Source of the DNA: Myxococcales bacterium
GTDB lineage: Bacteria > Myxococcota_A > UBA796 > GCA-2862545
Direction of reading: 5' to 3'
Assembly: GCA_019634415.1 (NCBI GenBank)
Contig: JAHQVJ010000041.1
Span: 62,001-126,000 of the forward strand
DNA length: 64,000 nt
The translations under genes and the position numbers were made by a program. Shown piece after piece: positions 9,717-18,912 of this stretch. The notes beneath the pieces are model-generated. The model did not search any database. It saw only the letters and a program-made list of their open reading frames with translations, and was not told the DNA's origin. How positions within the stretch are numbered: position 1 is the stretch's first letter; each line of letters starts with the position of its first letter.

Positions 9717-9760
9717 GCCGTGAAATCTGAGTGAAGACGCACGAGAGCATGGGGGTCCAC

Positions 9761-11707
9761 ATGCGATGGTCGGTGCTGCTCCTGGTGGGGCTAGCTGGTT
9801 GCGAGGGGGTCAGCGAGTCTGACTGCCTCCCTGAACAACAATTCGACATCTTTGTCGACGCAGATGGCGACGGGTTTGGCACCGGTCTGCCCGAGTCCGC
9901 TTGTGAGGTCCCTGCGGGGTACTCCGACAACCGGGTGGACTGTGACGACGACAACGCGGAGGTCTTCCCCGGCGCGGAGGAGGTCTGCAACGCCATCGAC
10001 GACAACTGCGACGGCAAGCGTGACGAGGGCTTCCCCCTCGAGCTGCGCTACCTCGACTCCGACGGTGATGGCTTCGGCAGCTTGTTCCCTGCGCAGCTCT
10101 CTTGCGAGGGAGCGCTGGGTGCCGAGTGGGTGCTGAACCCCGACGACTGCGATGACTCCAACGCCGAGGTCAACCCGCTGGCGCAGGAGATCTGCAACGA
10201 TCGCATCGACGACGACTGCGACGGCGAGGCCGACGACGACGACTCCTCCACCCTCTTCTCATCGAAGACGGCGTACTACGAGGATCGCGACACCGACGGC
10301 TTCGGCGACATCGATCGCGAGATCTTCCGCTGCGAGCCCATCGTCGGCTACGTCGACAACTTCAACGACTGTGCGCCGAACGATCCGGAGGAGACCAACT
10401 CCCCGTTCCCAGCCGACCGCGATCTCGACGGCTACGGTGCGCAGTACGACCAGGTGATGTCCTGCGCGGGCTACCCGGGCACGGCCGACAACACCATCGA
10501 CTGCGACGACAGCAACCCCGACGTCAACATCGACCGGTACTGGTACAACGATGCCGACGGTGATGGCTGGGGGGTCGGCGATCCCGAGTCCTTCGGCTGC
10601 TTCCCACCCAACGGCTTGTCCGTCGGCAGCAACGTGGGCGACTGCGACGACGCGGATCCCGCCATCAACGACGGTGCTGACGAGATCTGCGACGACGGGA
10701 TCGACCAGAACTGCAACGGCAAGATCGACTGCATCGATCCCGAGTGTGGCCCCGACAGCACCTGCCTGCTCGACTGTGTCGACCAGGGGCTGCCCGGCTA
10801 CGAGACGATCACCGACGTGTTCGAGACCACCGTGGGCGCCGGCAACGACATCACCCTGTCGTGCAACTTCGGCAGCGAGCCCGACTACTGGTTCCAGTGG
10901 CGCGCTCCGGCGGACGGCGTGTACCACATCAACACCTTCGGCTCGTACTCCCGCGACATCTCCGACGGTTGGGTCAACCTCAAGACGTTGGGTGTGCTCG
11001 AGGACTGCGAGGCCGAGTCCGAGATCGAGTGTGGTCGTTACTTCAACACGCTGCGCGCGGGCTACTACTACGATCCTCGCGTCACCCTCGAGGCCGAGGA
11101 AGACAAGCTGTACGTCATCGTCGTGGACGGCTACCGTCGCTACGAGGGCAACTTCAAGCTGGGCATCGCGCGCTTCGAGGACGAGGACGGCGACGGGCTG
11201 ACCAACCCCGAGGAGCTGTTCGCCTGGCGCAACCTCTCCGCGGCGGTCCGCGGTGTGGACACCACCGTCGTGAAGACCGATCCGTGGAACGTCGACACCG
11301 ATGGTGACGGCATCCAGGACGGCACCGAGCAGGGCCTCGAGGCCTCGGGTGTCCTCGGGCCGCACGAGACCACCGACCTGAAGATCTTCATCCCCGATGC
11401 GGATCCGACCACTCGCACCGACCCGCGGGAGGCCGACAACGATCAGGACGGTCTGCTCGACGGCGAGGAGGACACCAACTTCGACGGTGCCTTCGACATC
11501 GGCGTGATCGGTGGAAACGGCACGGTGGGCACGGGCGAGACCGACCCGCAGGACCGCGACACCGACGATGACACGCTAAGCGACGGTGACGAGGTGGCCC
11601 TGGGCACGAGCCCGGTGGACACCGACAGCGACGATGGTGGCCGGCCCGACGACCACGAGGTCCGCAACGGCACCGACCCGCTCGATCCGAAGGATGATCT
11701 GCTCTAG
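9761..11707 (+). CDS. MopE-like surface lipoprotein, copy 1
   Basis: 648 residues from the ATG at 9761, which gives a classic lipoprotein signal (MRWSVLLLVGLAGC); a GTG ten codons upstream is also in frame. Residues about 20-330 hold five putative metal-binding motifs of the form D(A/S)DGDG(F/W)G ... DCDD ... E(V/I)CN..DD(N/D)CDG. The middle (about 335-470) looks like a beta-sandwich domain with a WFQWRAP segment, followed by acidic DxDxDG calcium-binding repeats of the thrombospondin-3 type, with one DTDSDDGGRPDDHEV motif at the end. It is probably an outer-membrane, divalent-metal-binding surface protein. The whole layout is repeated in the next gene. Confidence 0.88.
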   Translation: MRWSVLLLVGLAGCEGVSESDCLPEQQFDIFVDADGDGFGTGLPESACEVPAGYSDNRVDCDDDNAEVFPGAEEVCNAIDDNCDGKRDEGFPLELRYLDSDGDGFGSLFPAQLSCEGALGAEWVLNPDDCDDSNAEVNPLAQEICNDRIDDDCDGEADDDDSSTLFSSKTAYYEDRDTDGFGDIDREIFRCEPIVGYVDNFNDCAPNDPEETNSPFPADRDLDGYGAQYDQVMSCAGYPGTADNTIDCDDSNPDVNIDRYWYNDADGDGWGVGDPESFGCFPPNGLSVGSNVGDCDDADPAINDGADEICDDGIDQNCNGKIDCIDPECGPDSTCLLDCVDQGLPGYETITDVFETTVGAGNDITLSCNFGSEPDYWFQWRAPADGVYHINTFGSYSRDISDGWVNLKTLGVLEDCEAESEIECGRYFNTLRAGYYYDPRVTLEAEEDKLYVIVVDGYRRYEGNFKLGIARFEDEDGDGLTNPEELFAWRNLSAAVRGVDTTVVKTDPWNVDTDGDGIQDGTEQGLEASGVLGPHETTDLKIFIPDADPTTRTDPREADNDQDGLLDGEEDTNFDGAFDIGVIGGNGTVGTGETDPQDRDTDDDTLSDGDEVALGTSPVDTDSDDGGRPDDHEVRNGTDPLDPKDDLL

Positions 11708-11800: not shown

Positions 11801-11831
11801 TTGCACGAGTGTCGTCGTCAGACTCTACAGT
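11801..11831 (+). promoter_or_regulatory. Possible promoter of second MopE-like gene
   Basis: TTGCAC at 11801-11806 and TACAGT at 11826-11831, spaced 19 bases, followed by GCCGTG as upstream of the first copy. The start codon is at 11872. Confidence 0.4.
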
Positions 11832-11871
11832 GCCGTGCAAACCGCACGGGAGCGTGTTCTTGGGGGTCCGG

Positions 11872-13809
11872 ATGCGATGGTCGACGCTGTTGTTTGTGGG
11901 GTTGGCAGGGTGTCCCACAGCAGATGGGGAGAACTGTCTCCCCGAAGAGGAGCTGGAGTACTTCGCCGACGGTGACGGCGATGGATTCGGCACGGGCTTG
12001 CCACAGATGGCATGCCAGATTCCCGCTGGATTCGCCGACAACCGGTTGGACTGCGACGATGCCGACGCAGCCGTCTTCCCGGGAGCCGAGGAGGTGTGCA
12101 ACGCCGTCGACGACAACTGCGACGGCAGGCGCGACGAGGGCTTCCCCCTCGAGCTGCGCTACCTCGACGGGGATGGCGACGGCTTCGGGGCGATCTACCC
12201 GGCGCAGCTGGCGTGCGAGGGCGCACTCGGGACCGAGTGGGTGCTCAACTCCGACGACTGCGACGACGCCAACGCCGCCGTGAACCCCATGGCGCAAGAG
12301 GTCTGCAACGATCGGGTGGACGACGACTGCGACGGCGAGGCCGACGACGACGACCTGTCCACCCTGCTGTCGTCGAAGACGGCGTACTACCACGACCAGG
12401 ACACCGACGGCTACGGCGACCTGAACCGTGAGATCTTCCGCTGCGAGCCCATCGTCGGCTACGTCGACAACTTCATCGACTGCTTCCCCGACGATCCGGA
12501 GCTCACCTACACCGAGCAGATCGCGGATCGCGACGGTGACGGCTTCGGCGCCGAGGACGACCAGGTGAAGTCGTGTGCGGGCTACCCGGGCACGGCCGAC
12601 AACACCGATGACTGCGACGACACCAACCCCGACGCCACGATCGATCGGTACTGGTACGCCGACGCCGACGGTGATGGCTGGGGCGTGGGTGATCCCGAGT
12701 CCTTCGGCTGCTTCCCGCCCAACGGTCTGTCCATGGGTCCCAACGTGGGGGACTGCGACGAGACGGATCCTGCGATCAACGACGGGGTTCCCGAGATCTG
12801 TGACGACGGGATCGATCAGAACTGCAACGGCAAGATCGACTGCATCGATCCCGGCTGCGGCGCCGAGAGCGCGTGCCTGCTCGCCTGCGTCGACAAGGGT
12901 CTGCCTGGCTACGAGACGATCACGGACGTGTTCGAGACCACCGTGGGCGCCGGCGACGACATCACTCTGTCGTGCAACAGCGGCAGTGAGCCCGACTTCT
13001 GGTTCCAGTGGCGTGCGCCGCGTGCGGGCACCTACCACATCAACACCTTCGGTAGCTGGGATCCCGACGATCGGGACTCCCTGCAGACGAAGAGTCTCGG
13101 TGTGCTCGAGAGCTGCGAGGCCGAGGACGAGATCGGGTGCAACACCTTCGGTGCGCTGCGCGCCGGGTACCGCAACGATCCGCGCCTGACCGTGGATGCT
13201 GCAGAGGACGAGCTGTTCGTGATCGTCGTGGACGCCGGACGGCGCAGCGACGGCACCTTCAAGCTCGGTATCGCGCGCTTCGAGGACGAGGACGGCGACG
13301 GGCTGACCAACCCCGAGGAGCTGTTCGCCTGGCGCAACCTGGATGCCGCGGTGCGCTTCACGAACACCGATCTCGTGAAGACCGATCCGTGGAACGTCGA
13401 CACCGACGGCGATGGGATCCAGGACGGCACGGAGCAAGGTGTGGAGGCCGACGGTGAGCTCGGGCCGCACGAGAGCACCGACCTGAGCATCTTCATCCCC
13501 GACGCAGATCCGGACACGCGGACGGATCCGCGCGAGGCCGACAACGATCAGGACGGCTTGCTCGACGGCGAAGAGGACACCAACTTCGACGGCGCCTTCG
13601 ACATCGGCGTGATCGGCGACAGCAGCAGCGTGGGCACGGGCGAGACCGACCCCAACGACCGCGACACCGACGACGACACGCTAAGCGACGGTGACGAGGT
13701 GGCCCTGGGCACGAGCCCGGTCGATACCGACAGCGACGACGGCGGCCGGCCCGACGACCACGAGGTCCGCAACGGCACCGACCCGCTCGACGGTACCGAC
13801 GACCTGTAG
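11872..13809 (+). CDS. MopE-like surface lipoprotein, copy 2
   Basis: 645 residues, colinear with the preceding protein from signal peptide (MRWSTLLFVGLAGC) to the last motif, and very similar in most stretches by eye. The same five metal-binding motifs, beta-sandwich and C-terminal DxDxDG repeats are present. The clearest differences are right after the signal peptide and in the middle domain (for example GSWDPDDRDS where copy 1 has GSYSRDISDG). The ATG at 11872 matches the ATG of copy 1; an upstream in-frame ATG at 11809 exists but would bury the signal peptide. The pair arose by tandem duplication; each copy has its own promoter-like element and a hairpin lies between them. Confidence 0.88.
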   Translation: MRWSTLLFVGLAGCPTADGENCLPEEELEYFADGDGDGFGTGLPQMACQIPAGFADNRLDCDDADAAVFPGAEEVCNAVDDNCDGRRDEGFPLELRYLDGDGDGFGAIYPAQLACEGALGTEWVLNSDDCDDANAAVNPMAQEVCNDRVDDDCDGEADDDDLSTLLSSKTAYYHDQDTDGYGDLNREIFRCEPIVGYVDNFIDCFPDDPELTYTEQIADRDGDGFGAEDDQVKSCAGYPGTADNTDDCDDTNPDATIDRYWYADADGDGWGVGDPESFGCFPPNGLSMGPNVGDCDETDPAINDGVPEICDDGIDQNCNGKIDCIDPGCGAESACLLACVDKGLPGYETITDVFETTVGAGDDITLSCNSGSEPDFWFQWRAPRAGTYHINTFGSWDPDDRDSLQTKSLGVLESCEAEDEIGCNTFGALRAGYRNDPRLTVDAAEDELFVIVVDAGRRSDGTFKLGIARFEDEDGDGLTNPEELFAWRNLDAAVRFTNTDLVKTDPWNVDTDGDGIQDGTEQGVEADGELGPHESTDLSIFIPDADPDTRTDPREADNDQDGLLDGEEDTNFDGAFDIGVIGDSSSVGTGETDPNDRDTDDDTLSDGDEVALGTSPVDTDSDDGGRPDDHEVRNGTDPLDGTDDL

Positions 13810-13860: not shown

Positions 13861-13930
13861 GACCGCTGACGCCTGACGCCTGACCGCTGACCGCCTGACC
13901 GCTGACCGCCTGACCGCCTGACCGCCGACC
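13861..13930. repeat. Tandem GACCGC(C)T minisatellite
   Basis: About nine consecutive imperfect copies of a 7-8 base unit (GACCGCT, GACGCCT, GACCGCCT) in the intergenic gap after the second MopE-like gene. A shorter GGCGTT-type repeat precedes it at about 13816-13838. It lies between convergent genes. Confidence 0.75.
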
Positions 13931-13948
13931 CCCTGAGAGCCCGACTCC

Positions 13949-15124
13949 CTACGTCGGCGAGCCCTCGGTGGACGGCTGCACGCGGGTCGGCGGGCGCTCC
14001 ACCTTGGTGGCGTAGCGGAGCCAGGGAAGCTCGGTGGGATCCTTGCCGAGCGTGCTCAGCCGATCTGCGATCCACTTGCGCACCAGCGGGATGTTCAGCG
14101 GGCTCTCCGACAGCTGCGGCAGCGGATCGAAGGCTGCCGCCAGGAAGTCCTCTGGCTGGGCGCGGAGCTTGGCGCGCGCGTCCTCGAGGTAGCGCTCTCG
14201 ATCGGGCTCGCGGATCGTGTCGATCTTGTTGATCACCGCCAGCACCGGGCGGCCCGTGCGCAGCAGCTCCACGTAGTCGCGCTTCTCACGGGCCTGCACG
14301 CCGCCCTGGGCGTTGATCACGTACAGGTAGACGTCGATGTGGTCGAGGATGGCGCGCGCTTCGTCGTGCACGTCCTTGATGATGTCGCCCATGCCCGGCC
14401 CCACGGCTCTGTACGTGGGGCCGGGCAGTCGCGCGATCTCCACTTCCTTGGTGGAGCCCGCCACTGGGCTGACGTTGCCGGTCTGGATCCCGAACAGGGT
14501 GGCGATGGCAGCGTCCTTGCCCGACGATGGACTGCCCACCACACCGATGGTCACGCGGTGACGAACCGCCTGTCGCAGTCGGCCCACCTCGAGGATGGCC
14601 GGCAGCACGATGTCGAAGCGGGGACGGGCGAGCCAGGCCAGGAACATGCAGCCCGGGAGCGGCACGGAGGGCTCGTTGATCAGCTGCATCACGTGGTAGC
14701 TGAAGCCCCGCGTGTGCTTGGCCTTCAGCTTCTCCAGCGCCTGATCTCCTTGTGCCGGAGCCGGCAGATCTCCGCGTGCCTCCTGCCACCGCTCCGTGCG
14801 CTCGCGATCCGGCAACAGGTGCCACGTGGAGCGGGTGTGCTCCATGGCGATCACGTGCTCGGCCAGCCCTGGCTCGTCGTCGGGGATCGCGACACCGAGG
14901 CGATCGGCCGCGAGCTTCAGTACGGTGTCGTAGGAAGGGCCCTCGCCGCGACGCAGCGCGATGTTGGCCAGATCGTTGGCCGCGTGGCGCCGAAGCCGCG
15001 AGCTGATGGCCTTCGAGAGCACGTCCACCTTCATGCCGTCGGGCTTGATTCGCAGCGCGAGGGCGAGGGGAAGCAGCTCGTCGCGGTGGCAACGGCGCAG
15101 CAACTCGTCGAGTTCGTCGCTCAG
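13949..15124 (-). CDS. GTPase with N-terminal YaaW-like domain (apparent CTG start)
   Basis: About 391 residues. The N-terminal 190 residues resemble the UPF0174/YaaW family: SDELDELLRRCHRDELLPLA at the start and LPAILEVGRLRQAVRH at the end of the domain align by eye with the equivalent YaaW segments. From about 190 follows a TRAFAC-type GTPase: P-loop GSPSSGKD (197-204), GSTKEV, GMGD in place of DxxG, and NKID (299-302). The P-loop has Asp where Ser/Thr is usual. No ATG, GTG or TTG lies in frame near the expected N-terminus; the CTG at 15124 overlaps the upstream stop as CTGA, the same geometry as the GTGA couplings elsewhere. It is probably membrane- or stress-related, but the function is unknown. 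Confidence 0.8.
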   Translation of the reverse strand: MSDELDELLRRCHRDELLPLALALRIKPDGMKVDVLSKAISSRLRRHAANDLANIALRRGEGPSYDTVLKLAADRLGVAIPDDEPGLAEHVIAMEHTRSTWHLLPDRERTERWQEARGDLPAPAQGDQALEKLKAKHTRGFSYHVMQLINEPSVPLPGCMFLAWLARPRFDIVLPAILEVGRLRQAVRHRVTIGVVGSPSSGKDAAIATLFGIQTGNVSPVAGSTKEVEIARLPGPTYRAVGPGMGDIIKDVHDEARAILDHIDVYLYVINAQGGVQAREKRDYVELLRTGRPVLAVINKIDTIREPDRERYLEDARAKLRAQPEDFLAAAFDPLPQLSESPLNIPLVRKWIADRLSTLGKDPTELPWLRYATKVERPPTRVQPSTEGSPT

Positions 15125-16233
15125 TGGGATGGGTGCACCTGCTGCCTGTACTGGTGGGCTTCGGCATCGAACACGTCGCGCAGCTCGGCACCCGTGATCT
15201 TGCCGTCTCGTTGCAAGAACGCCACGGCTGCCTTGCCGATTCCATAGGTGGTGGCGCTCGCCACCGTGGCTCCCAAGGCGCTCGTGGCCAAGGTCATCGC
15301 CTGGCCTCCCGGGATCCAGCCCGCCGTCTTCAGCGCCTTCACCGCCCACCCCACGAAGCCTCGGCTCGATCCTGCCAGCGCCTCTGCGATCACGAACAGG
15401 ATGAGCTCCTGATCCATCTGGCGGTCGAAGATGGTGGCCAGCTCGGTGATCATCGACACCTGGATCGCCATCACCGCCGTGGCGTCCGCGCCAGGAATGG
15501 GAATGGCTCCTGCCACCGCCGCTCGCTGCGCCGCGTCGCGAATCGCTGGCTCGCAGGCCGCGGACTTGTTCCGGAGGTTCTTGGCGAACAGCAGCGCCTT
15601 GCCCGAGTCCGACAGCTTCTTGTGGATCCAGGAGATCACCTTCGGTACGCCGATGGGCGTCTGGGACAGGGCGGGCATCGGATCGAATGCCGTCACGATG
15701 ACCATGTGCTCGGGCACCCCCAGCTGTACGATGGTGGAGCGGATGAAGGTGGGCCGATCCTCGGGACGGATCAGATCGATCTTGTTGAGGCACACCAGCG
15801 TGGGGCGGCCCAGCTGACGGATCCGGTCCAGATCGCGTCGCTCGTCGATGGTCGCCCCGCCATCGCAGTTGACGACGTACACGGCGAGATCGAGGGCGTC
15901 GAGCACTTCCTCTGCGCGCTCGGCCACCTCGGAGCGCAGATCGCCGAAGCCCGGCGCGTTGATCACCAGCAGGTGGTGATCGGGGTCCACCGGGGCCACC
16001 CGCGCCCGGTCGGTGGAGCCGGGGATGGGATCCACCTGCCCGAAGTCGAGGCCGAACAGGGCCTTGATCGCGGCGTCCTTGCCCGACGAGGCCGATCCCA
16101 GGAACGCGACGGCGAGGGTCTTGTCGAGGCTCGCGCGCGCCTCCGAGGCCGCCAGCTCCCACCGCTCGGCCACCTGGGTCATCACTTGGCTCTTCAAATC
16201 CGGCAGCTGTGGCGCGGGCTCGTCGGTGCTCAT
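15121..16233 (-). CDS. GTPase with DUF697-like C-terminal domain
   Basis: 370 residues from an ATG preceded by GAGG. The GTPase domain has a P-loop GSASSGKD (46-53), a GSTDR switch region (72-76), INAPGFGD (91-98) at the place of DTPG, and NKID (150-153). The region after about 230 contains hydrophobic helices with alanine/glycine-rich stretches, similar to the DUF697 domain found behind Era-like GTPases, so it probably associates with the membrane. As in its downstream partner, Asp replaces the Ser/Thr that normally ligates magnesium in the P-loop. The stop overlaps the next gene by 4 bases, so the two GTPases are probably made together and may form a heterodimer. It diverges from the DUF1800 gene. 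Confidence 0.85.
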   Translation of the reverse strand: MSTDEPAPQLPDLKSQVMTQVAERWELAASEARASLDKTLAVAFLGSASSGKDAAIKALFGLDFGQVDPIPGSTDRARVAPVDPDHHLLVINAPGFGDLRSEVAERAEEVLDALDLAVYVVNCDGGATIDERRDLDRIRQLGRPTLVCLNKIDLIRPEDRPTFIRSTIVQLGVPEHMVIVTAFDPMPALSQTPIGVPKVISWIHKKLSDSGKALLFAKNLRNKSAACEPAIRDAAQRAAVAGAIPIPGADATAVMAIQVSMITELATIFDRQMDQELILFVIAEALAGSSRGFVGWAVKALKTAGWIPGGQAMTLATSALGATVASATTYGIGKAAVAFLQRDGKITGAELRDVFDAEAHQYRQQVHPSH

Positions 16234-16390
16234 GTTCGCCTCGGGATGGGGCCAGGGTACTACGTTGCTGGTGGACGGCCACTCCTGGCCGAGGGGGAGG
16301 ATCCGAGCCGTCGCCATCCAATATCGACGGGCCCGATCCGTTCTCCTGAGGAAGCTCGTCGTCTCCACCCTCACGACCGTTGGACATCCC

Positions 16391-17746
16391 ATGTCTCGCA
16401 CCGAAGCGTTCGTCGCCGCCACCCGGTTCGGGCTGGGCCCGAGGCCAGGGGAGCTGCGTGTCATCGCGCGGAAGGGCCCGAGTGCGTGGTTGTTCGCGCA
16501 GCTCGACGGGCCCGATCCGAAGACCACCGCAGCCTTGGGCCAGCTCCCCCCCACCAGCGCTCACGTGGCTCGGCAGGCGGAGGCTCGTGGTGCGAGCCAG
16601 GAGGCGCGGAAGATGGCGCGGCAGGAGGCGCGGGAGGCCTTCAAGCGGGAGCAGGCCGCGCACCTGTCGGCGTCCGCGTCGTCGGACCGGCCGTTTCGAG
16701 AGCGCCTGGTGGCCTTCTGGGCGAACCACTTCACCGTCTCCACGCTTCGCGGTGGGTTGGTGGGGGTGGTGAGCGGGTTCGAGCGGGAGGTGATCCGAGG
16801 GAACCTGGACGGCCGCTTCGCGCAGATGCTCCTGGCCAGTACGCGCCACCCGGCGATGCTCGGCTACCTCGACAACCTGCGCTCCATCGGGCCCACCTCC
16901 AAGGCGGGTCAGCGCTCTGGTCGAGGCCTCAACGAGAACCTCGCTCGCGAGGTCCTGGAGCTGCACACCCTCGGGGTGGGGGGTGGATACGACCAAGGCG
17001 ACGTGGTCGCGCTGGCGGAGCTGCTCACGGGCTGGACCTTGGCGGGGGCGCGCCGCTCCGAGTCGCAGATGCGCATGGATCACGAGGGCGCGACGGGTCA
17101 ATTCGAGTTCGACGAGCGCCGCCACGAGCCTGGGTCGAAGCGGCTGCTGGGCGTGCGCTACGGAGGGCGCGGCTACGACGACGGTGTGGCTGCCCTCGAC
17201 GCCCTCGCCCAGCACCCCGCCACCGCTCGACACGTCGCGCGCAAGCTGGTGAGGCACTTCGTGTCCGACTCACCCAGCACTGCGGACGTGGCTGCGCTCG
17301 CGAAGGCCTTCACCGACAGCGGCGGGCACCTGCCCACGGTACACCGCGCCCTCGCGCAGCTGCCGTCGGCCTACGAGGAGCCGCTGGGGAAGGTGAAGAC
17401 CCCCTGGGATCTGGTCCTGTCCACAGCGCGGGCGCTGGGTCAATCAGCCCAGGGTACCGCGATGCTCGCAGCACTGCGGTTCCTGGGGCAGCTTCCCTTT
17501 CAGGCGCCTTCTCCGCAAGGCTGGCCCGATACCTCGGACGCCTGGCTCGGTCCCGAGGCGATCTTGAGCCGTCTGGACTGGGCCAACCAGGTGGCGCGCA
17601 CCACCGAGGTGGCCGATGCTGGGGGGCTCGCCAAGGATCTGCTCGGTCCTGTGCTCACGGCTGCCAGCGAGCGCGCCATCGCCGCCGAGCGTGGCCGCAA
17701 GGCAGTGGCGATGTTGCTGGCCTGTCCCGAGTTCCAGCGGAGGTGA
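16391..17746 (+). CDS. DUF1800 family protein
   Basis: 451 residues. It shows the signature features of DUF1800: an N-terminal RFGLGPRPGEL, the central RERLVAFWANHFTVS, a NENLAREVLELHTLGV segment with GYDQGDVVALAELLTGWT just after it, and the DALAQHPATARHVARKLVRHFV region. These proteins are exported or periplasmic in other bacteria and are nearly always encoded next to a DUF1501 protein, as here (stop and next ATG are 2 bases apart). The biochemical role is not known. The ATG at 16391 is the first start that fits the family N-terminus. Confidence 0.92.
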   Translation: MSRTEAFVAATRFGLGPRPGELRVIARKGPSAWLFAQLDGPDPKTTAALGQLPPTSAHVARQAEARGASQEARKMARQEAREAFKREQAAHLSASASSDRPFRERLVAFWANHFTVSTLRGGLVGVVSGFEREVIRGNLDGRFAQMLLASTRHPAMLGYLDNLRSIGPTSKAGQRSGRGLNENLAREVLELHTLGVGGGYDQGDVVALAELLTGWTLAGARRSESQMRMDHEGATGQFEFDERRHEPGSKRLLGVRYGGRGYDDGVAALDALAQHPATARHVARKLVRHFVSDSPSTADVAALAKAFTDSGGHLPTVHRALAQLPSAYEEPLGKVKTPWDLVLSTARALGQSAQGTAMLAALRFLGQLPFQAPSPQGWPDTSDAWLGPEAILSRLDWANQVARTTEVADAGGLAKDLLGPVLTAASERAIAAERGRKAVAMLLACPEFQRR

Positions 17747-17748
17747 CC

Positions 17749-18912
17749 ATGCGACGACGAGGGTTTCTACAGGGTCTCGGGGCGGTCGCAGGGCTGGCCG
17801 GCACCTCGGTGGCCTACGCTTCGGCACCCACGGCGTCTCGGCTGGTGGTGGTGGTGCTGCGCGGAGGCCTCGACGGCCTCGCCGCGCTCCCGGCCCACGG
17901 CGACCCGGCCTACGCGTCCGCGCGCGGCACGCTGGCGCTGCCCACCGAGGACGTGCTCGATCTGGACGGTACCTTCGGGATGCATCCCGCGCTGTCGGCG
18001 CTGCAGCCCCTGGTCGCGCGCAAGGAGCTCGTCGCGCTACACGCCGTGAGTCCGCCCTACCAGGAGCGGTCTCACTTCGACGGCCAGGATGTCCTCGAGA
18101 ACGGCACCGAGCGGCCCTTCGGGGCGCGAACGGGCTGGCTCAACCGGGCGCTGCAGACCTTGGACGCGCAGCCACCAGCCATGGCCGTCGGCCGCACCGT
18201 GCCCCTGCTGCTCAGAGGGCCTGCACGCGCGGCGTCCGTGGACCCGCTGCGGCGGCCGCGAGAGCGCGACGGCTGGTGGGAGCGTGTCGAGGCGCTCTAC
18301 GGCGCCGATCCGCTGCTCGGTCCCGCGTTGTCCGAGGGGTTGCAGATCCAGGCGCGCCTCGCCCCACACCAGCCGCAGCGAGCGCGCGGGGAGAAGCGTG
18401 GTGAGCCAGGTGCCGAGGCAGCGCGTGTCGTGGCACGCGTGCTGTCGGCGGAGGATGGGCCGCGGGTGGCGGTGCTCGAGATGGGTGGCTGGGACACCCA
18501 CGCCAATCAGTCGCGCACGCTGCAGCGCCAGCTCGACGCCCTCGGTGGGGCGCTGGCCGCCTTCGGCGAGGCGATGACCCCCGACGTCTGGCGACGCACG
18601 GTGGTGCTCGCCGTCACCGAGTTCGGCCGCACGGTGGCGCCCAATGGCACCAGAGGATCCGATCACGGGGTGGGGGGTGCCGCATTCCTGCTCGGTGGCG
18701 CCGTGAAGGGAGGGCGCGTGCTGGCGGACTGGCCCGGCCTACGAAGCACGGCCTTGCTCGAGGGGCGTGATCTGCGACCCACCACGGATCTTCGGTCCGT
18801 CTTCAAGGGCGTGCTCCACGATCACCTGGAGGTGCCTCAGCAGGCCCTCGACAGCACGGTGTTCCCGGGCAGCGCCAGGACTCCGAGGATGCGCGGTCTG
18901 CTCCGGGGGTAG
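17749..18912 (+). CDS. DUF1501 family protein, Tat-exported
   Basis: 387 residues. The N-terminus MRRRGFLQGLGAVAGLAG is a twin-arginine signal, so it is folded before export. The body has the DUF1501 hallmarks, which belong to the alkaline-phosphatase/sulfatase fold: VVVLRGGLDGLAALP near the N-terminus, GMHPALSAL, SHFDGQDVLENG, EMGGWDTHANQ, TEFGRTVAPNGTRGSDHG and the C-terminal DLRSVFKGVL. It forms an operon with the DUF1800 gene just upstream. The pair is common in Myxococcota and Planctomycetota; the substrate is unknown. Confidence 0.92.
   Translation: MRRRGFLQGLGAVAGLAGTSVAYASAPTASRLVVVVLRGGLDGLAALPAHGDPAYASARGTLALPTEDVLDLDGTFGMHPALSALQPLVARKELVALHAVSPPYQERSHFDGQDVLENGTERPFGARTGWLNRALQTLDAQPPAMAVGRTVPLLLRGPARAASVDPLRRPRERDGWWERVEALYGADPLLGPALSEGLQIQARLAPHQPQRARGEKRGEPGAEAARVVARVLSAEDGPRVAVLEMGGWDTHANQSRTLQRQLDALGGALAAFGEAMTPDVWRRTVVLAVTEFGRTVAPNGTRGSDHGVGGAAFLLGGAVKGGRVLADWPGLRSTALLEGRDLRPTTDLRSVFKGVLHDHLEVPQQALDSTVFPGSARTPRMRGLLRG

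Follow-up and report, generated by a model that had tools for sequence, protein, structure and literature searches.

The two proteins described here, A and B, resemble the TRAFAC GTPases of the Era, Der and EngB type (PF01926) in predicted fold, in the P-loop Lys, in the Thr of G2 and in the NKxD motif. They differ from these GTPases in having Asp instead of Ser/Thr at the position after the P-loop Lys (K+1), Asn instead of Asp at the Walker B position, and other accessory domains. An Asp after the P-loop Lys, as in A and B, is present in the phage dNMP kinases, which have a GKD Walker A motif and are kinases, not GTPases. In a survey of 3136 catalytic sites, the K+1 Ser/Thr is a Mg2+ ligand that forms a short hydrogen bond with the Walker B Asp (Kozlova et al. 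2022; PMC9599734). The survey calls both residues strictly conserved and states that activity is lost when either is replaced.

JukA/YaaW (UPF0174), the jumbo phage killer sensor, is homologous to the N-terminal domain of B. According to a review (PMC13282480), JukA is a sensor of early phage proteins, and its effectors are diverse and include phospholipases and transcriptional regulators. B differs from JukA/YaaW in that its domain is fused to a GTPase, is not accompanied by a JukB match and occurs widely across a single order. DUF697 GTPases, including a pair found at a second locus in the same phylum (L065), are like A and B in combining a GTPase with DUF697 and in forming two adjacent genes. 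The immunity-related GTPases (Irga6, Irgb6), most of which have a canonical GKS, align structurally with the model of A over the whole chain, and a LeoA profile links A to the bacterial dynamins (LeoA/LeoBC), but the sequence identity is low (about 12%) and the superposition is loose.

Layout of the two genes

The window, the 64,000-nucleotide stretch that was analyzed, comes from a 9.8 Mb draft genome in 254 contigs. The orthologue rows cited below are 43 extracted frames for A and 45 for B, and the B rows include one from outside the order (locus L064). The features are as follows.

15121..16233, minus strand: gene A, GTPase domain plus DUF697 helical domain, 370 aa, ATG start (PF05128 and PF01926 profiles)
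16075..16098, minus strand: A G1/P-loop GSASSGKD (in GSASSGKDAAI), Asp at K+1 (from the translation; Asp in 43/43 A rows)
15949..15960, minus strand: A G3 position NAPG (in NAPGFGD), Asn in place of the Walker B Asp (Asn in 43/43 A rows)
15775..15786, minus strand: A G4 NKID (NKID in 42 and NKVD in 1 of 43 A rows)
15193..15549, minus strand: A DUF697 domain, hydrophobic helices (Pfam; helices in the predicted model)
13949..15124, minus strand: gene B, JukA/YaaW-like N-terminal domain plus GTPase domain, 391 aa when counted from CTG (frame open to the stop at 13949; JukA/YaaW profile matches)
14570..15124, minus strand: B divergent JukA/YaaW-like N-terminal domain (PADLOC JukA and hhalign against YaaW; all-helical in the predicted model)
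14513..14536, minus strand: B G1/P-loop GSPSSGKD (in GSPSSGKDAAI), Asp at K+1 (Asp in 45/45 B rows)
14393..14404, minus strand: B G3 position VGPG (in VGPGMGD), NTPG in relatives (alignment with relatives)
14219..14230, minus strand: B G4 NKID (NKID in 28, NKVD in 16 and NKLD in 1 of 45 B rows)
15121..15124, minus strand: CTGA stop/start overlap of A and B, 4 bases (the TGA of A overlaps CTG in the B frame)

Gene A scored above the curated cut-offs of both Pfam families, with 33.1 bits for PF05128 (cut-off 27.7) and 29.3 bits for PF01926 (cut-off 21.9), and the PF01926 match of B was over the cut-off as well. The best PDB sequence matches of A were Der and Era, and its structure model had a mean pLDDT of 86.3. 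The predicted models of A and B both aligned to EngB, Der and Era, with Z-scores of about 15-17 over 150-170 residues. Measured against the P-loop GTPase motifs, A and B keep GxxxxGK and NKxD and have neither GK[S/T] nor DxxG. The GKD P-loop that the preliminary description reported in both proteins was confirmed, and so was the intact NKID in both; NKxD is found in all 88 rows.

The same description presented the two genes as overlapping. They do share 4 bases, but only if B starts with CTG, and no ATG or GTG was found at the A/B junction in the window. In-frame alternatives for B lie downstream of the A stop, with the next TTG at 20 bases and the first ATG at 89 bases. In many relatives this exact junction point reads GTGA or ATGA, so CTG is probably the start of B in the window.

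The B of the window is the least typical B of the family. Compared to its nearest relative, it has a two-codon deletion and several altered residues at G3, and its VGPG is the sole departure from Asn at G3 among the 88 A and B rows. It also has no hydrophobic segment above the threshold used. The combination of a CTG start, a lost G3 and no such segment suggests that B may be decaying in this species.

Conservation of the K+1 and Walker B residues

The K+1 residue is Asp in every row of both proteins (88/88). Asn occupies the Walker B/G3 position in all 43 A rows (NAPG 38, NTPG 4, NSPG 1) and in 44 of the 45 B rows (NTPG 42, NAPG 1, NYPG 1), which is 87 of 88 for A and B together. The G2 Thr is kept throughout. 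The preliminary description stated that DxxG was missing from both proteins, and this is the case in the window; across the family, however, the pattern is an exchange of Asp for Asn rather than a simple loss. It also named GKS or GKT in close relatives as the sign of sequence error or drift, and neither was found, with GKD in 43/43 A and 45/45 B rows.

The window's genome has 25 MMR_HSR1 matches, 22 of them with a readable P-loop (12 GKS, 8 GKT and 2 GKD); in a second family genome, G029, P-loops were readable in 26 of 29 matches (16 GKS, 8 GKT and 2 GKD), leaving three unread in each. The only GKD P-loops in either genome are those of A and B, and this background rules out GKD by chance. Elsewhere in the window's genome there are two further, closely spaced GTPase-domain genes (G000:C237:5631-9045), with the P-loops GRVAAGKS and GCFSSGKS.

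DUF697 GTPases with a conventional P-loop differ from A and B at G3. Among the ORFs from the DUF697 search of the phylum, those listed with GKS or GKT had Asp at G3 in 14 of 14 cases, a count that includes the L065 pair and omits L066 (GKT, no clear G3) and L256 (GRT). That survey covered 40 regions plus L064-L066 and L162, and for most of its ORFs no in-frame P-loop could be read. Set against the two-genome background and these DUF697 ORFs, the 88 A and B rows firmly support a paired exchange in this subfamily, in which Ser/Thr (K+1) and Asp (Walker B) were swapped for Asp (K+1) and Asn (Walker B). A literature search that had most subscription papers outside its reach, and whose broader part was judged by title and abstract, turned up no GKD GTPase and nothing joining DUF697 with a GTPase and a P-loop.

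Origin and distribution

When 377 genomes of the phylum were searched with A, 45 of the 63 belonging to the same order were hit, and in nearly all of these B appeared as a second match. Both genes are missing from the other 18 of 63, several of which are more than 95% complete. A tree built from 94 GTPase domains, in which the program flagged several long branches, places all GKD rows on one side of one branch (support 95/90), as expected for the distinct subfamily that was proposed earlier. A, joined by a protein from an Acidobacteria MAG (L162), and B, joined by L064, are sister groups (support 97/83 and 93/69). The tree thus points to a single origin of the Asp/Asn exchange that predates the split of A and B. 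As a single event, it gives the coupling of G1 and G3 one instance without independent replication.

Scanning 84,980 species genomes yielded 52 loci, and these provided 44 GKD frames of the A type and 44 of the B type. The frames appear to come mostly from the same order genomes as the phylum search, plus L162. The scan relied on near-exact peptide patterns that, judging from the patterns themselves, would miss the JukA-GKD fusion L064; with patterns this narrow, the 52 loci may understate the extent of the family. Alignments were made from 34 of the 44 A frames plus the window (A2) and from 36 of the 44 B frames plus the window (A3). Six loci (L115, L135, L149, L151, L152 and L160) have genes of this order in records whose titles, Bifidobacterium breve or Klebsiella pneumoniae, look wrong.

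No match to A was found in plasmids or phages, and the A1 profile gave no confirmed relative in viral contigs. Querying plasmids with the JukA fusion returned JukA-type genes only, in 17 records, and in each of them the match fell short of 80% of the query. On the basis of these searches, a mobile or viral origin was rejected.

Outside the order, the fusion at L064 (genome G071, from another class of the phylum) combines a clear JukA domain (E 1e-46) with a GKD/NYPG GTPase and, at the level searched, is the only such case among the 192 genomes of its class. It lies directly beside, and convergent with, the DISARM genes drmA, drmB and drmC (L064:1-5624). At L162, the gene of the A-type GKD protein comes 1.2 kb downstream from one for a LeoBC-like dynamin, and two small ORFs separate them. 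The pair at L065:3828-6016, in the same phylum, consists of adjacent, overlapping canonical GTPase genes (GKS/DTPG) with DUF697, and neither protein has a JukA match, in contrast to B. This canonical pair is a possible representative of the ancestral arrangement.

Pairing of A and B

Among the 45 genomes of the order in which at least one of the two genes is present, 43 carry both; G302 has A only and G274 has B only. The proposal that the proteins work as a pair agrees with this to the extent that the genes travel together. It was also asked whether GKD proteins always come as neighboring pairs. This is true of most, with A and B adjacent on one strand in 36 of the 42 genomes with extracted rows, but not of all. 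Of the six exceptions, one is split at contig ends, and in the remaining five the genes are unlinked, inside different contigs, and both are retained. Four of these belong to genus g20, and the fifth is G283.

The pairwise identity matrices of A and B correlate (Spearman 0.81, a raw value in which phylogeny is not factored out). From these genome comparisons, the view of A and B as co-inherited partners is well supported. Their inheritance inside the order looks vertical, unlike that of a typical mobile defense system. No conserved third partner was seen near A and B within the order when neighbor clusters were judged by eye. The other large clusters, also by eye, looked like out-of-frame shadows of A and B or unrelated repeats.

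Accessory domains and predicted structures

By their predicted domains, A and B are non-equivalent GTPases, since B has a JukA/YaaW-like domain fused to its GTPase and A has DUF697. At a threshold of E<=0.01, the PADLOC JukA model recognized 19 of the 37 B members, with a best value of 1.2e-10 and 0.0018 for the B of the window. An hhalign comparison of a profile of 44 B N-termini, with L064 kept out, against E. coli YaaW as the sole target gave a probability of 95.2% and an E-value of 2.9e-8 over 110 columns. In the window's own genome, no hit reached E <= 0.1 for the JukA model PDLC04111, suggesting that the JukA-like domain is highly diverged in this species. PADLOC JukB matched neither A nor B. 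The PDB fold search of the B model had no JukA-like chain among the matches listed and is uninformative on the N-terminal domain.

For A, the PADLOC model of LeoA, a dynamin-like family, matched 34 of 35 members. The predicted A model aligned to the immunity-related GTPases Irga6, Irgb6 and GM4951 over 259-290 residues with Z-scores of 14-17 and a loose rmsd of about 8. For GM4951, the values were Z 16.8 and rmsd 8.5 over 259 residues, and EngB reached an equal Z on the G domain alone.

Proposed function and alternatives

A and B most likely still bind GTP, judging from the P-loop Lys, switch-I Thr and NKxD that remain in both. We see the chances as evenly balanced that they are paralogous TRAFAC-type GTPases of one subfamily that bind GTP with a reconfigured Mg2+ site and work at a membrane as a hetero-pair with a possible role against phage. 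Under this model, the carboxylate of the P-loop Asp would occupy the Mg2+ ligand site and the amide of the Walker B Asn would hold that Asp, so the bridge would be kept with donor and acceptor reversed. B would sense through its JukA/YaaW-like domain, and A would act on the membrane through GTP-dependent assembly, possibly against phage. The JukA-like sensor on B together with the body on A that resembles immunity-related GTPases and dynamins suggests such a division into sensing and membrane action.

The JukA/YaaW-like domain of B is a lead to phage defense, and the largely vertical, order-wide inheritance counts against a defense role. If the JukA link is true, GTPases would join the partners of a widespread anti-phage sensor. 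The fuller claim, that A and B form a catalytically competent GTPase class with Asp (K+1) and Asn (Walker B) that serves as a two-protein membrane immunity switch with a JukA sensor and an IRG-like arm, seems to us improbable at present.

A housekeeping role is possible, if on balance doubtful: A and B could be a membrane or cell-envelope GTPase pair of this myxococcotal order that is unrelated to phage defense. Their presence in 45 of 63 order genomes, the similarity of the A and B trees and the lack of common neighbors among the order genomes are all consistent with such a role. It sits less well with the JukA homology of B, with the DISARM genes beside the fused relative L064, and with the joint absence of A and B from 18 order genomes, including several nearly complete ones.

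Rather unlikely is the explanation that A and B are pseudo-GTPases that bind nucleotide and do not hydrolyze it, the Asp/Asn change having abolished Mg2+-dependent hydrolysis; the pair would then form a GTP- or GDP-locked scaffold while the work is done by DUF697 and the JukA-like domain. The activity loss that PMC9599734 ties to replacement of the K+1 Ser/Thr or the Walker B Asp would fit this, and the B of the window lacks even the G3 Asn. However, both paralogues show tighter conservation of G1, the G2 Thr, N-x-P-G and NKxD than a plain scaffold would call for, and pure loss leaves the fixation of Asn at G3 (87/88) unexplained. With both residues changed and the other motifs kept, the A/B family allows a direct test of the proposal of Kozlova et al. 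(2022): one outcome is GTP hydrolysis that dispenses with the Ser/Thr-Asp relay, the other a role as dedicated non-hydrolyzing switches.

Sequence error or drift in one genome has next to no probability as the source of GKD and is refuted by its fixation in all 88 rows, which come from many assemblies; the VGPG and the CTG-only junction of the window's B are unusual, but only its G3 could be an error.

Flanking sequences

In the window, a short GC-rich tandem array of about 10 copies of the GACCGCCT type (13861-13936) lies just downstream of B. Further downstream of B, the plus strand encodes two large proteins that are adjacent and alike, and each has three MopE metal-binding motifs (9731-11707 and 11809-13809). 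Divergent from A, a DUF1800 gene (16013-17746, plus strand) is followed by a DUF1501 frame that ends at 18912 on the same strand.
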